Source: Vreelandella zhuhanensis
GTDB lineage: Bacteria > Pseudomonadota > Gammaproteobacteria > Pseudomonadales > Halomonadaceae
Direction of reading: 5' to 3'
Assembly (NCBI RefSeq): GCF_009793355.1
Contig: NZ_WTKP01000008.1
Location: 62,001 to 126,000, forward strand
Length of the DNA: 64,000 nucleotides
Of the stretch, positions 40,064-46,498 are shown piece after piece. The notes beneath the pieces are model-generated. The model was not told where the DNA came from and made no database searches. It saw only the letters and a list, made by a program, of their open reading frames with translations. A program made the translations under genes and the position numbers. The first letter of the stretch is position 1. Every line of letters starts with the position of its first letter.

Positions 40064-42544
40064 CTATACCAATAGCCTGCTCCAGCTGCCATAGCGGCCA
40101 TGGATCGGCCCACGACGCACGCTCAGCGCAATGACCGCAACCCCGCAGACAAGGCTGTTGATCAATGCCGCGGTGTCGGCGTCATGCAGAAAGGGCACCA
40201 GGCACAGCATGGCACCTAACACAATCAACACCCAACGTACCGGGCGCGCCGACTCCGCCAAGGCGATGATCGATACGGTAATGATCAGCGCCCCAAGCAA
40301 GTGATCCCAGTTGGCCAAGCTGCCTTCATTGCCGAAGGTCAGCCGGGTAAACATCAGCCAGATACCGATCGCAATGGCTAGCCCCAGGTTCCAGGGCAGG
40401 GTGACCCCGGTTTGCAGGGCATCCCGAGCGATAGCCTGTGGGCTGCGGTGAAAGTCGTCTTGCATGGGTTCGCGCTCTCCTTCGTCGGTATCACCGGTAA
40501 AGAATATCTTGAGCATCGGCGCCCCGGCACGATAACGCCGCTTGAGAAATTCACCGGTAGCCACGAACTCATTGAAGGCATAGGCGATCTGCAACAGCAT
40601 CGCCCCCGCCTGAATCAGGCATAAGGTGCACCAGGTACCGATGAGTATCGGCTGAATAATGATGAAGGTCACCGAGACCACACCTAAGGGCACGATCAAG
40701 ACACCGAATGAGGCAACGACCCAGGGCATGGTGCGCCAACGCTGGCTGGTACCGATGAGCCCGATCAGTATTTCCAGCATGTAGACGATGCCGCCCAGGC
40801 CAGCATCGGGAATCGGCCAGGCCTTTGAAGCCGAAGAGGTAATGATGTCTTCGGTTCCGTTGAGCCCTTCCCTGGTGCCGGCAAAGAACGGGTCCCAGAC
40901 GGCGTCGATATGCCCCAGCTGATAAGCCGCCAGGTAACGCGAGATGAAGAACCCCACCAAGGCCAGCAAGATGATCGGCATGCGCTGAAACCAGCTGGAA
41001 GGGTTGTTGTTGAAGCCGGGTGGCATGGTAGGCCCTGTGGTGGCCGCCGCCGGTGAGATGCCAGGGGAGGGCCGCACCACGGCGGAAAAGCCGATCGCCA
41101 GCATCCCGGTCACGGTGCCGTTGAGATAAGCCGCCGCGCTTTCGGTCCAGAAAAGTAGCGGCGCGAACAGCAGCCATATCCCCACCGCCGCGCATACCCA
41201 GCGAGCCCAGCTGTTACGCCATGAAAGTGAAATGCAGCCGAACACCACCAGTAAAAGCCCTGCGGCCATGTCGCTGAAGCTCATGGCGCTGCTGGTGTAG
41301 CCGAGTATCGAAGGCGAGGTAATCAGCCAGGCACCCAGCCCCACATTGAAAAAATGCGCCCAGAGCGTGCGGAAATGCTCGCGTTGGTACTGTTGCTGAT
41401 ACTGTTCGAGTACGGTTTCGGCGTTGCGGCCCTTTTCGCTGGCTTCCTCCATCCAGTCCGGTGGCGTGATGCCGTTGGCCTTGTACCAGCCACGCGGGTC
41501 CTTCAACAGGTTGGCGACGATATCCTCGAGTTTGTCGAATAACTCATGGCGCGGCTCCCAGCCAAGCTGCTTGCGCGCCCGATTGATATTCAGCTCGTAG
41601 TGGTCGTCGGCCATATCGATCATGAAGGGCCGAATGAACGGCTTCTCGCCCTTGTCGAAATCATCGGGTATCAAGGGCTCGCTTTTTTCCTCGAGCAAGG
41701 CGCCGGTCTTGGCGAGCGGCTTGGGCATCGAAATGGTCTTCCAGTGTTCCTTGCCGTGAATCAACTCGCCAATCCGGTTCTGCAACGCCTCGTAACTCAC
41801 GCAATGCGGCTCACCGACGAGAATCTCGTTCTCCCGGGGCAGGTCGTGACGCTTGTCGATGGTGCGGCGGAAGGCATCGATCATGTCTTCCTTGTGGATA
41901 CATGCCTGGCCGGCGCCGGTATTGCCTGAGTAGAGGTGACTTTTAAAGGAGTCTTCATAAATGCGCGCAATCTGATGCGATAAAGTGGGAACGCAGTTGT
42001 TTTCATCGTACATCCCGGCCAGTCGCAGCAGGGTGTAGGGCATGTCGCCCGCCTGTTCGCGTATCACTGCTTCGGTTTTGGCTTTCGATTTCGGGTAGGC
42101 CCAGGTAGGCGCGATAGGGGTGTGCTCGGTGATCTTTCTGCCGGGTATCTGAGGCTTGTGGACCAGCATGGTGCTGGAGTAGATGAACCGCTCCACATTC
42201 ATGTCCTGCAGAGCCGTCAAGAGGTTGCTGGTGCCCTGCACATTGACCTTGTCGTAGAGAGGCGATTCTTCACCGGTAAAGTCGAAGTAGGCCGCCAGAT
42301 GCACGACCGCGGCAATGTCCCTGCCATGACGGTCGGCTATCTTGTCCATGGCTTCCTTGATGGAATCCACCGAGGTAAGGTCGAATTCATGGCTTTCGTC
42401 CGCGTCTTTTGCCTCTTTCATGTCCAACCCGATGATCCAGTAGTCACGCTTCAAGCTATGGGTCAGGGCGGTTCCGATACCGCCGGCGGCACCGGTGATG
42501 ATAACGATGGGCCTGTGTTGATTCGCTTTTCTCTTGTCCTGCAT
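40064..42544 (-). CDS. SDR-SPW-VKOR-SPW multidomain membrane protein
   Basis: An 826-residue fusion. Residues 10-350 are an NAD-dependent epimerase/dehydratase (nucleotide motif ITGAAGGIGTAL, active site Y150-x3-K154 in WAYPKSK, Ser in IYSSTML). Residues about 390-490 are an SPW-repeat membrane domain (VGLGAWLITSPSILGY). Residues about 520-675 resemble a vitamin K epoxide reductase (VKOR) unit with the redox motif C639-TL-C642; the second cysteine pair of classical VKORs is not obvious (SSAS in that region). Residues about 715-810 are another SPW-like block. Start chosen at MQDKRKANQ behind AAAGGA. Function is unknown; a membrane redox or lipid-related role is inference. Confidence 0.8.
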   Translation of the reverse strand: MQDKRKANQHRPIVIITGAAGGIGTALTHSLKRDYWIIGLDMKEAKDADESHEFDLTSVDSIKEAMDKIADRHGRDIAAVVHLAAYFDFTGEESPLYDKVNVQGTSNLLTALQDMNVERFIYSSTMLVHKPQIPGRKITEHTPIAPTWAYPKSKAKTEAVIREQAGDMPYTLLRLAGMYDENNCVPTLSHQIARIYEDSFKSHLYSGNTGAGQACIHKEDMIDAFRRTIDKRHDLPRENEILVGEPHCVSYEALQNRIGELIHGKEHWKTISMPKPLAKTGALLEEKSEPLIPDDFDKGEKPFIRPFMIDMADDHYELNINRARKQLGWEPRHELFDKLEDIVANLLKDPRGWYKANGITPPDWMEEASEKGRNAETVLEQYQQQYQREHFRTLWAHFFNVGLGAWLITSPSILGYTSSAMSFSDMAAGLLLVVFGCISLSWRNSWARWVCAAVGIWLLFAPLLFWTESAAAYLNGTVTGMLAIGFSAVVRPSPGISPAAATTGPTMPPGFNNNPSSWFQRMPIILLALVGFFISRYLAAYQLGHIDAVWDPFFAGTREGLNGTEDIITSSASKAWPIPDAGLGGIVYMLEILIGLIGTSQRWRTMPWVVASFGVLIVPLGVVSVTFIIIQPILIGTWCTLCLIQAGAMLLQIAYAFNEFVATGEFLKRRYRAGAPMLKIFFTGDTDEGEREPMQDDFHRSPQAIARDALQTGVTLPWNLGLAIAIGIWLMFTRLTFGNEGSLANWDHLLGALIITVSIIALAESARPVRWVLIVLGAMLCLVPFLHDADTAALINSLVCGVAVIALSVRRGPIHGRYGSWSRLLV

Positions 42545-42775
42545 GAGTAGAGATCCTTTCTGTCGTAAGGCGAGAAGACGTCCCACACCACATGACAAAC
42601 TGACCTTCAATCTAGTCGGGAAAACAGCGATCCGGCAAACACCTATTCAAGCGTTGCACACGTGAATGTTGCGGCAGGGCGCAGCAATGAAGCGGATATG
42701 TTTTCTGCAAGCCTCTTGGCTGGCATGGCGGCAAGCCGTAAGCTCGGATTCCAAACAATTTTTCGAGCTCGCAGC

Positions 42776-44035: not shown

Positions 44036-44088
44036 GAAAAATGGCTTTTACGTCCAAGAGCTGAAAATCCAAGAATGGAACAAGCAAG

Positions 44089-44377
44089 TGGTCAACTACC
44101 TCGCCCTAAAGGACGAGGCTTGTGACAACAAGCCCGGTTGACCAGGGAAAGCGGTAGCCAACCCGCTACGTTTGCAATAGGTCGTCAAGACCCACCGCCG
44201 AATGCTTCGCTCAGTTCGGCGCTCTGGAAGGTCAGGATCACGCTGGTGAAAGGTAAAGCGCCGAAGGTTCTGATCGCTACCACAAGGTAGGAGCCGGTTG
44301 CAGACATTCCCGAGGGGAGACAGGTTGGAAGACCTGCGTCACTAGGCCCGTAAGGGCAATGTTTAGGAGGAGATCGC
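44089..44377 (+). ncRNA. Omega-RNA (HEARO RNA) of IscB
   Basis: The whole stretch before iscB folds into consecutive stems. TGGTCAAC (44089-44096) pairs with GTTGACCA (44137-44144) and encloses CCTCG/CGAGG (44099/44114) and GCTTGT-GACA-ACAAGC (44118-44133). Then come AGCGG/CCGCT (44150/44163), GGTC/GACC (44180/44189), GCCGAA/TTCGGC (44197/44215), GGCGCT/AGCGCC (44218/44257), TCCC/GGGA (44308/44315), CAGGT/ACCTG (44321/44332) and GCCC-GTAA-GGGC (44346-44357). The RNA runs up to the iscB RBS. In known IscB systems the guide is the 5' end, so here it would be roughly the 16-20 nt just left of 44089. Confidence 0.8.
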
Positions 44378-45748
44378 ATGGCGGTTTTCGTATTGGGAAA
44401 GAACAAGCAGCCGTTGATGCCGTGTTCGGAAAAACGCGCACGGTTGCTGCTGGAGCGCGGACGGGCAGCGGTGGTGAACCTGACGCCTTTCGTGATCCGG
44501 TTGCGGGATCGCTGCCTGAGTGACTGCACCTTGCAGCCAACCCTGCTGGCTGCCGATCCGGGCAGCAAGGAAACCGGGCTGGCGCTGATGCGGCTGGGAA
44601 ACAACGCAACGGAAGAAAAGGCACCGGCAACCCGCCATGTGCTTTGCCTGTTTCAGTTGGTGCATCGGGGCTTCCAGATTCGCCAAGCCTTGGAGCAACG
44701 TGCCGGTTTTCGGCGTCGGCGTCGCAGCAAGAACCTGCGCCATCGCAAGCCACGCTTCGACAACCGGACGCGCAAGAAGGGCTGGCTGCCGCCCAGCTTG
44801 CAACACCGGGTCGATACAACCATGGCTTGGGTGGACAAGCTGTGCCGTTGGGCGCCGGTGACTCATCTGAACATGGAATTGGTGCGCTTCGATCTACAGA
44901 AGATGGAAAACCCGGAGATTTCCGGGGTCGAGTACCAGCAAGGCACGCTCCTGGGCTATGAGGTGCGTGAATACCTGCTCGAAAAATGGGGTAGAGAGTG
45001 CGCCTACTGCGGTACCGGTGATACGCCCCTGGAGATCGAGCATGTGGTAGCGAAATCTCGGAACGGCTCTAGCCGGGTGAGCAACCTGACCGTCGCCTGT
45101 CACGACTGCAATATCGCTAAGGATAATCAGTCGCTTGCCGACTTCTTTGCCACCGACAAGGGGTTGAAGCGCCGCCTGAAAGCCAATGGCCTGTCGGCGG
45201 AAATGCGCTTGGCTCGGGTGCAGCGCCAGCTCAAATTACCGCTGCGGGATGCCACCGCTGTTAATGCCACCCGCTGGGCACTGTTCGGTGCAATGAAGTC
45301 CACTGGTCTACCCGTCGCCGTGGGCAGCGGCGGTCGCACCAAGTACAACCGTCAGCGCCTGGGTATTCCCAAAACCCATGCGCTGGATGCGGCCTGTGTC
45401 GGCAAGTTCGATACCCTGAAAGGCTGGCGGGTACCCACCCAGGTCATCAAGGCCATGGGGCGCGGCAGCTACAAGCGCACCCGGCTCGACAAGTACGGCT
45501 TTCCGCGTGGCTACCTGATGCGCCAGAAGCAAGTACAAGGTTTTCAGACCGGCGATAGGGTCAGGGCAATTGTCCCGACCGGCAAGAAGGCCGGCACGCA
45601 TACGGGTCGCGTGGCAATCCGCAAGACTGGCAGTTTCAATATTCAAACCGAACAGGGCGCGGTACAGGGCATCTCCTGGCCCTACTGCACTCTGTTGCAA
45701 CGCGGTGATGGCTACGGCTACCACCAGATACCCACGACTCAACACTAA
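44378..45748 (+). CDS. iscB: IscB RNA-guided nuclease (RuvC-HNH)
   Basis: A 456-residue member of the family ancestral to Cas9. The N-terminal PLMP domain is present (VLGKNKQPLMPCSEKRAR). RuvC-I is LLAADPGSKETG with D60; an arginine-rich bridge helix follows (QRAGFRRRRRSKNLRHRK, 108-125); RuvC-II is NMELVRFD with E167; the HNH domain (about 205-250) has C208/C211 and C241/C244 with H222 (IEHVVAKS) and N236; RuvC-III is H334-ALD337. After it comes the C-terminal target-interaction region (to 456). All expected catalytic residues are present, so the nuclease should be active. The AGGAGGAG ribosome binding site lies at the 3' border of the omega-RNA. Confidence 0.95.
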   Translation: MAVFVLGKNKQPLMPCSEKRARLLLERGRAAVVNLTPFVIRLRDRCLSDCTLQPTLLAADPGSKETGLALMRLGNNATEEKAPATRHVLCLFQLVHRGFQIRQALEQRAGFRRRRRSKNLRHRKPRFDNRTRKKGWLPPSLQHRVDTTMAWVDKLCRWAPVTHLNMELVRFDLQKMENPEISGVEYQQGTLLGYEVREYLLEKWGRECAYCGTGDTPLEIEHVVAKSRNGSSRVSNLTVACHDCNIAKDNQSLADFFATDKGLKRRLKANGLSAEMRLARVQRQLKLPLRDATAVNATRWALFGAMKSTGLPVAVGSGGRTKYNRQRLGIPKTHALDAACVGKFDTLKGWRVPTQVIKAMGRGSYKRTRLDKYGFPRGYLMRQKQVQGFQTGDRVRAIVPTGKKAGTHTGRVAIRKTGSFNIQTEQGAVQGISWPYCTLLQRGDGYGYHQIPTTQH

Positions 45749-45838
45749 AGGAGGCGCGGACAGGGAACCCCGAGTCGTGCTGCGCACGACGCGCTATCCC
45801 TCCCGGCGCTAAAGCAACCGGGTTTCCCGCGCAAAACG

Positions 45839-46498
45839 ATGAATAAAACAATCAAAACTACGCTGCGGTGTCTGGCTATCGCAAGCCTTGCCGTCGTCTC
45901 TACCGGCTGTGCGATGCTGGCGCCTGCGCCTCCCGATGACCAGAGCAATGTCTGTGAAATCTTCCGCGAACAGCCTAGCTGGTATGACTATGCACGGGAT
46001 TCCCAAAAGGCATGGGGCACGCCGATAGCCACCCAGATGGCCTTCATTCAGCAGGAGTCTTCGTTTCGCAGCCATGTACGCCCGCCCCGAAGTCGCCTGC
46101 TGGGGTTCATTCCCTGGCGGCGGCCTTCTTCCGCACGCGGTTACGCCCAGGCCCAGGACCCCGTCTGGGGGGAATACGAGGCGGATGCGGGAGGGCTTTT
46201 TGCCCGGCGAACGCACATGAAGCATGCCACGGATTTCATCGGCTGGTATAACCGCCGCACCCAGCAACAAACCGGCGTTTCCCTGAACAATCCCGAGCAT
46301 CTCTACTTGGCCTACCATGAAGGCCAGGGTGGTTATCGTCGGGGGTCGTACCGAAGCAAACCCCAGGTGATGCGTGCCGCACGCCAAGTAAGCAGCCGCG
46401 CAGGGCGTTATCAGGCCCAGCTGTCAGCCTGCGAAGCCGAGTTTCAATGCCGTCGCTTCTATCAGGTATGGCCTTTCTGCCGAGGAAAACGTCGATAA
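45839..46498 (+). CDS. Lytic transglycosylase (SLT-type) lipoprotein
   Basis: A 219-residue lipoprotein: signal peptide and lipobox VVSTGC (Cys24), then a domain with FIQQESSFRSHVRPPR, where ESSF is the SLT motif with the catalytic Glu, and YLAYHEGQGGYRRGS. It should cleave peptidoglycan glycan strands from the outer membrane. No ribosome binding site is visible: the DNA right up to 6 bp before the ATG belongs to the IscB element's end, so expression may be altered. The final 75 nt overlap tail-to-tail with the HAD gene. Confidence 0.8.
   Translation: MNKTIKTTLRCLAIASLAVVSTGCAMLAPAPPDDQSNVCEIFREQPSWYDYARDSQKAWGTPIATQMAFIQQESSFRSHVRPPRSRLLGFIPWRRPSSARGYAQAQDPVWGEYEADAGGLFARRTHMKHATDFIGWYNRRTQQQTGVSLNNPEHLYLAYHEGQGGYRRGSYRSKPQVMRAARQVSSRAGRYQAQLSACEAEFQCRRFYQVWPFCRGKRR

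Follow-up and report, generated by a model that had tools for sequence, protein, structure and literature searches.

The IscB locus

The window, by which we mean the whole 64,000-nucleotide stretch of Vreelandella zhuhanensis DNA that was analysed, carries an omegaRNA of the HEARO family, an iscB gene, a short structured right end and, directly behind it, the gene of an SLT_4 transglycosylase, all read in the same direction (Table 1). The initial annotation had described a complete IscB-omegaRNA locus here, and a covariance search for HEARO bears this out: the hit to RF02033 spans the entire model with a score of 110 bits (gathering cut-off 83, E 8.6e-22), and it is followed by an intact IscB that scores 423 bits against NCBIfam guided_IscB (cut-off 175). 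The 8-bp outer stem around two hairpins that had been described appears in the HEARO alignment, and the last hairpin lies where it had been placed, ahead of the Shine-Dalgarno sequence of iscB. The protein matches Pfam RRXRR (PF14239, 1.2e-69) as well as HNH (PF01844) and is similar to solved IscB chains; RRXRR/PLMP, RuvC and HNH are present at family score with HEARO directly upstream, two of the features by which an IscB is recognised. Residues D60, E167, H222 and D337, which we take to be catalytic from IscB/Cas9 motifs, were all found by count on the translation at the positions claimed for them. IscB is under purifying selection: dN/dS between the window iscB and 12 other copies was 0.075-0.188, and six closer iscB pairs gave 0.081-0.496, with the maximum among near-identical copies of genome G034.

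Table 1. Features of the IscB element and its insertion site (positions in the window)
Feature	Position	Strand	Basis
Host left flank, presumed guide, 20 nt	44071..44090	+	Directly 5′ of HEARO start; guide use presumed
Whole mobile element, 1748 bp	44091..45838	+	Start and end shared by the four copies of the own genome and by relatives
HEARO / omegaRNA core	44091..44325	+	Rfam RF02033
GCCC-GTAA-GGGC hairpin, beyond the Rfam model	44346..44357	+	Sequence
Shine-Dalgarno of iscB, AGGAGG	44365..44370	+	Sequence, 7 nt before ATG 44378
iscB, 456 aa	44378..45748	+	NF040563, PF14239, PF01844
AAAGGAGG, proposed Shine-Dalgarno of the host gene downstream	45747..45754	+	Sequence; kept in relatives; overlaps iscB stop
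P1 5′ arm, GCGCGG, proposed closing stem	45754..45759	+	Single-sequence fold; predicted closing probability 0.99
First right-end hairpin	45774..45790	+	Fold; covarying pairs in family
Second right-end hairpin	45802..45822	+	Fold; covarying pairs in family
P1 3′ arm, CCGCGC	45827..45832	+	Fold; part can join competing GCGC/GCGC helix
Target ATGA, start codon of downstream gene, presumed TAM	45839..45842	+	ATGA in 45/46 copies; IsrB NTGA (PMC9581776)
Host gene, transglycosylase SLT_4, 219 aa	45839..46498	+	Pfam PF19489

A non-autonomous element in several copies

The locus is a 1748-bp non-autonomous element of ISC/IS605 type. The initial annotation had found the right locus but set its borders slightly off, at 44089 and 45832; other copies and an empty site give 44091 and 45838. 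The genome itself holds four HEARO matches and four full-length IscB matches (100, 93, 89 and 77% identity), and all four frames are open. DNA homology among these copies begins at an identical first base, GTCAACTACC (44091), and stops at one common place, ..GCGCAAAA followed by CG or TCTG; the empty trmB site of a further copy places the right end point behind AAAACG. The flanks are otherwise unrelated, so that the copies occupy four unrelated sites, and the copies diverge by 9-27% in DNA with the omegaRNA and both ends kept.

TnpA had been described as absent, and this holds for the whole 3.25-Mb assembly: at E<=0.001 nothing in it matches the Y1 TnpA family PF01797 (the same search gave matches in 5 of 14 control genomes); it is for this reason that the element is termed non-autonomous. 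A TnpA-bearing copy that could have been its source was likewise not found in this genome. Other marks of the ISC/IS200-IS605 group are present: fixed ends, a fixed adjoining tetranucleotide and no target duplication (ATGA in 45 of 46 copies; empty sites at trmB, argS and alaS), together with an end that is shared with TnpA- or TnpB-bearing elements (L127 of G025; L307, L308, L309 and L318). A Y1 TnpA in the element or the cell is the one such mark that was not found in the own genome. IscB/HEARO systems (OMEGA; ISC group of the IS200/IS605 superfamily) are alike in their 5′ HEARO omegaRNA, RRXRR and HNH protein, NTGA-like site and usual lack of a nearby TnpA, and IscB loci are described in PMC9755519 as usually having no adjoining TnpA.

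Across the genus, the IscB protein has matches in 14 of 82 genomes, and in 11 of the 82 it is full-length; G008 has fragments only, and G047 and G072 have weak partial matches (HNH only in G047). Y1 TnpA was matched in 10 of 14 genomes searched. In G039 there are at least 20 IscB matches (20 of 53 candidates were scored), 33 HEARO matches and 21 Y1 matches, while the single-contig genome G034 has seven copies (L146-L150, L153, L154) that are 97.3-99.7% identical and a sole Y1 match that is RAYT-like by inspection.

The initial annotation had suggested that a nuclease kept without its transposon may have another job. That suggestion is not needed, as a non-autonomous transposon suffices for four same-ended copies at unrelated sites of one genome. 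Recruitment of IscB by the host is accordingly a reading to which we give very little credence: the missing Y1 TnpA, the purifying selection and an SLT_4 insertion common to G039 would be in its favour, but purifying selection is equally expected of a spreading element, full-length IscB is patchy among the genomes, multiple copies sit at different sites with intact ends, internally deleted and truncated copies exist, and the G034 copies are recent. Host domestication was rejected on this multi-copy, patchy, transposon-like distribution. It is just as improbable that the four copies are old, functionless and immobile relics; their divergence, the lack of TnpA and the site common to G039 would agree with this, and against it stand the four open frames, the low dN/dS and the preservation of the omegaRNA and both ends. 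The IscB locus is an ordinary non-autonomous ISC element, and the notable part is its insertion at a start codon together with an end that resembles a ribosome-binding site.

Insertion at start codons

The set comprised 55 loci, four from the own genome and 51 fetched; the element was matched in 51 of the 55, and 46 included the right end. In 45 of these 46 Vreelandella copies the right end abuts ATGA, L154 having ATCA instead. With the window itself as control (a single 64-kb stretch with 532 ATGA sites), and with copies that share ancestry, the adjoining ATGA opens a frame of at least 60 codons in 34 of 46 copies compared with 187 of the 532 control sites (binomial 1e-7), the left flank ends in a Shine-Dalgarno-like motif in 25 of 44 copies compared with 22% (a pattern that leaves the window copy outside the 25), and both occur together in 22 of 44 compared with 10.5% (6e-11). 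In the other 12 of 46 no frame of 60 codons follows. The insertion sites are distinct in 45 of 46 cases, two without a left flank being counted by name.

The genes entered in this way are diverse. Besides the window's own, 30 of the 34 downstream proteins were scanned in part (L194, L195 and L196 were left out), and 27 of the 30 contain a Pfam family, as does the SLT_4 protein of the window, the gene of which is present in 82 of 82 genus genomes. The families include HhH-GPD/endonuclease III, UvrD/Rep helicase, PurD, ArgRS, AlaRS, an LptA/LptD_N protein, RsmE-type and TrmB-type methyltransferases, and YicC; the corresponding gene names are in part presumed.

Empty sites show where the element enters. 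For the trmB copy of G039, the genome of the window has an empty allele in which ..GAGAACTC is directly followed by ATGACAGAACC, and comparison of the empty and filled sites reveals neither duplication nor loss. Uninserted loci of relatives (29 alaS and 15 argS, the latter from a motif that recovered argS in 16 of 30 loci, with the 14 misses uncounted) all have GGA no more than 18 nt before ATGA. At argS of G019 and alaS of G045 the element lies precisely at the gap from GGA to ATG, and only one match to the synthetase in question is found in either genome. The products of argS and alaS are essential in bacteria generally. With the host Shine-Dalgarno now about 1.7 kb from the ATG of argS or alaS, translation must therefore start from an ATG that has lost its own site. 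At the SLT_4 gene, G039 holds the element at the same site as the window, and an empty SLT_4 site was sought in 28 further fetched loci, none of which matched the 500-bp left flank by blastn.

The tetranucleotide may have a second role. The TAM of IsrB is NTGA, with both TTGA and ATGA targets cut (PMC9581776), and by analogy ATGA is presumed to be the TAM of the window IscB. The 20-nt guide length was taken from the guide-target duplex of IsrB in the same source. A search of the own genome with the window guide plus NTGA gave one match at up to 3 mismatches, the element's own left junction; a reversed control pattern gave two.

The right end as a proposed split ribosome-binding site

None of the 46 copies has a linear Shine-Dalgarno sequence (GGA-type, -18 to -3 of the ATG). 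What 45 of them have instead is a distal site, an AAGGAGG-like motif that starts 87-101 nt upstream of the ATG (L193 has AGAAGG there), which is the arrangement of a split Shine-Dalgarno. The motif adjoins one arm of a stem, and a few nucleotides separate the second arm from the ATG. Fold predictions give an enclosing pair a probability above 0.5 in 45 of 46 copies (mean 0.93; shuffles 0.26), and the predicted spacing in the folded state is 7-8 nt in 27 of 46 and 0-1 nt in 11 of 46. The copies at argS, alaS and lptA have no in-frame ATG, GTG or TTG upstream before a stop; an in-frame upstream start, at least 33 nt off, is available to eight G034 copies, L161, L186 and L193.

The reading we prefer, at a probability of roughly 0.65, is that a non-autonomous IscB transposon has inserted before a start codon and that its right end is a split ribosome-binding site that keeps the host gene translated. 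The anatomy is firm; the translational step we infer from the predicted folds. A precedent exists in phage T4 genes 38 and 25, which have a split Shine-Dalgarno and an RNA structure that shortens the spacing from 22 to 5 nt and from 27 to 11 nt (PMC3014915). The likeness would lie in a structure between Shine-Dalgarno and AUG, predicted in the present case; the difference is that T4 has a short hairpin in the gene's own leader, whereas here the end of a mobile element would remove about 80 nt.

The chief rival holds that the right end is a DNA signal only: its hairpins and adjoining bases, purine run included, would be bound by Y1 TnpA on single-stranded DNA, host genes would be translated by reinitiation after iscB or without a Shine-Dalgarno, and the start-codon bias would reflect the target choice of TnpA (TCAT) plus the loss of intragenic insertions. 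We regard this as possible but distinctly less probable. Covariation support for P1 is mixed, and the weak signal on the alignment agrees with the rival. RNAalifold favours a competing GCGC/GCGC helix that uses the P1 3′ arm and is fully kept (paired in 160 of 160 cells), another point for a DNA signal, whereas P1 is paired in 88.5% of cells and 96 of 500 shuffles were as good, so that it does not rise above shuffles; the 40 alignment rows (31 for RNAalifold) were chosen by hand, and in the distant rows the Shine-Dalgarno positions were hand-set as well. In a permutation of arms, own 5′ and 3′ arms paired better than permuted ones, with 17 of 5000 permutations as good (58 distinct pairs), or 34 of 5000 for the 29-member subset without Vreelandella IscB copies, in statistics that ignore relatedness. 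The end also resembles that of a Y1 TnpA locus in G025 (L127; 75% over 64 nt), a likeness that suits a DNA signal and because of which the right-end hairpins probably serve transposition. By inspection, no Shine-Dalgarno was seen at that TnpA end, which argues against a purine run that merely belongs to the TnpA signal, as does the near-perfect match of the distal motif to a Shine-Dalgarno. DNA and RNA roles of the right end may exist together.

Distant IscB loci and TnpB elements

The comparison was widened to 45 distant IscB loci drawn from 77, with Vreelandella and some truncated loci left out; they come from proteobacteria, Acidithiobacillus, records labelled Sulfobacillus and Nitrospirae, cyanobacteria and others. 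Thirty-eight of the 45 yielded a junction at ATGA or GTGA, and 31 of the 38 open at least 60 codons; on inspection, at least L076 and L088 among the 38 had been assigned the wrong ATGA. Insertion at ATGA/GTGA is reportedly mentioned in Weinberg 2009.

At 12 of the 38 junctions iscB ends on the TGA of the target ATGA, and at a further 3 its stop falls within TGATGA. Overlaps of the ATGA/TGATG type have been linked to translational coupling (PMC6728339), and these layouts, 15 of 38 in all, are a point in favour of the rival explanation by reinitiation. The window differs, as its iscB stops 93 nt before the ATG, and so do TnpB elements with no upstream frame. The motif, moreover, is kept wherever iscB stops, which speaks against a DNA-only role: in 21 distant ends aligned by hand, a Shine-Dalgarno-like motif and stem arms are visible irrespective of where the iscB stop falls. 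Two cyanobacterial ends (L086 and L094) have the motif in line, a further point on the same side. The fold set of 29 was formed from the 38 by removing L076, L085, L086, L088 and L094, and also L072, L077, L092 and L108, which have no Shine-Dalgarno-like motif. Within it, an enclosing pair has a probability above 0.5 in 21 of 29 loci (mean 0.70; shuffles 0.31) and a likely enclosing pair is missing in 8 of 29; the predicted folded spacing is 0-13 nt. The iscB frame of L069-L074, L079-L081, L087, L090 and L102 crosses the right end, and its stop is supplied by the ATGA of the insertion site.

The same end occurs on elements of another kind. A search with the right end gave matches in at least 15 of 82 genomes, and of seven such loci inspected, four (L307, L308, L309 and L318) have the end next to a TnpB gene (Pfam OrfB_IS605, Cas12f1-like_TNB). 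These Vreelandella TnpB-only elements are alike in the Shine-Dalgarno, a P1-like stem (GCGAGA/TCTCGC in L308, L309 and L318; GCGGGA/TCCCGC in L307), two hairpins and the ATGA. They differ in that tnpB reads away from the end, with the Shine-Dalgarno and stem facing neighbouring host sequence, and in that their genomes have no IscB match save the weak HNH-only one in G047. Since TnpB elements own the same host-facing end, it is not IscB that the motif serves, and their keeping it with no upstream reading frame for coupling is evidence against a DNA-only role. L318 precedes a SlmA-like gene; from the ATG adjoining L307 and L309 no long frame opens.

Two side observations concern these ends. The start of an RsmE-type gene is preceded both by a TnpB element (L308:1440-1570, in G047) and by an IscB copy (L171, in G004). 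IscB and TnpB elements also have in common a recurrent AAGATAGC-like motif, which lies upstream of the Shine-Dalgarno of the right end (for example in L053, L071 and L308:1460-1475).

Proposed mechanism and significance

In the mechanism that we propose for the split ribosome-binding site, the element, in the order guide, HEARO omegaRNA, IscB and right end, would come to lie between the host upstream region and the start codon. It would probably be mobilised by a Y1 TnpA acting in trans or by one since lost, with ATGA serving both as insertion site and, by analogy to IsrB, as TAM. Insertion would part the host Shine-Dalgarno from its ATG, and the right end would replace it: an AAGGAGG-type sequence would remain outside the stem while about 80 nt are folded away, leaving 7-8 nt to the ATG in the commonest fold prediction. 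Because element and gene point in the same direction, the host promoter could transcribe the guide and omegaRNA too. In the usual model of IS605 nucleases, cutting of the uninserted allele favours the element. An uninserted allele contains the guide sequence next to ATGA and so would be cut, to the benefit of the element.

A wider form of this proposal, which we hold to be slightly better than an even bet, is that a clade of the IS605 superfamily bearing IscB and TnpB targets ATGA (TCAT on the other strand) so as to hit start codons, and that its gene-facing end brings along a split ribosome-binding site; translation even of essential genes would then be almost undisturbed by insertion, and the guide RNA of IscB would come to lie downstream of an active host promoter. 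It is an open question how compact transposons with programmable nucleases spare their hosts, and a mobile ribosome-binding site would answer it without splicing. If true, the insertion would be near-silent, the counterpart in protein synthesis of intron splicing; the start-codon-like look of the target-adjacent motif would be explained, and TAM choice, target choice and host-gene expression would be linked in IscB and TnpB elements. Among titles and abstracts on IscB, HEARO, TnpB and IS605 ends, a scope that lies apart from Weinberg 2009, Kapitonov 2016 and Altae-Tran 2021, none was found that reports a right end with a Shine-Dalgarno and stem directed at a host start. Even if the mechanism is wrong, the insertions at argS and alaS between Shine-Dalgarno and ATG need explaining.

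Other copies and a neighbouring gene

Several copies in G039 are of unusual form. L185, L186, L192, L193 and L194 are internally deleted, and in L192-L194 about 268 bp of left end and 150 bp of right end are left, which makes them look like a miniature element with an omegaRNA start. In L177 of the same genome (3725-4500) a Y1 TnpA fragment lies behind HEARO in the same orientation, and the stretch that separates them looks, as judged by eye, like what is left of an IscB; this is another kind of ISC element, formerly with TnpA. In the window itself, upstream of the IscB element and on the opposite strand, an 848-aa frame (40064-42610, -) unites an NAD-dependent epimerase domain, SPW repeats and a vitamin K epoxide reductase domain (Pfam).
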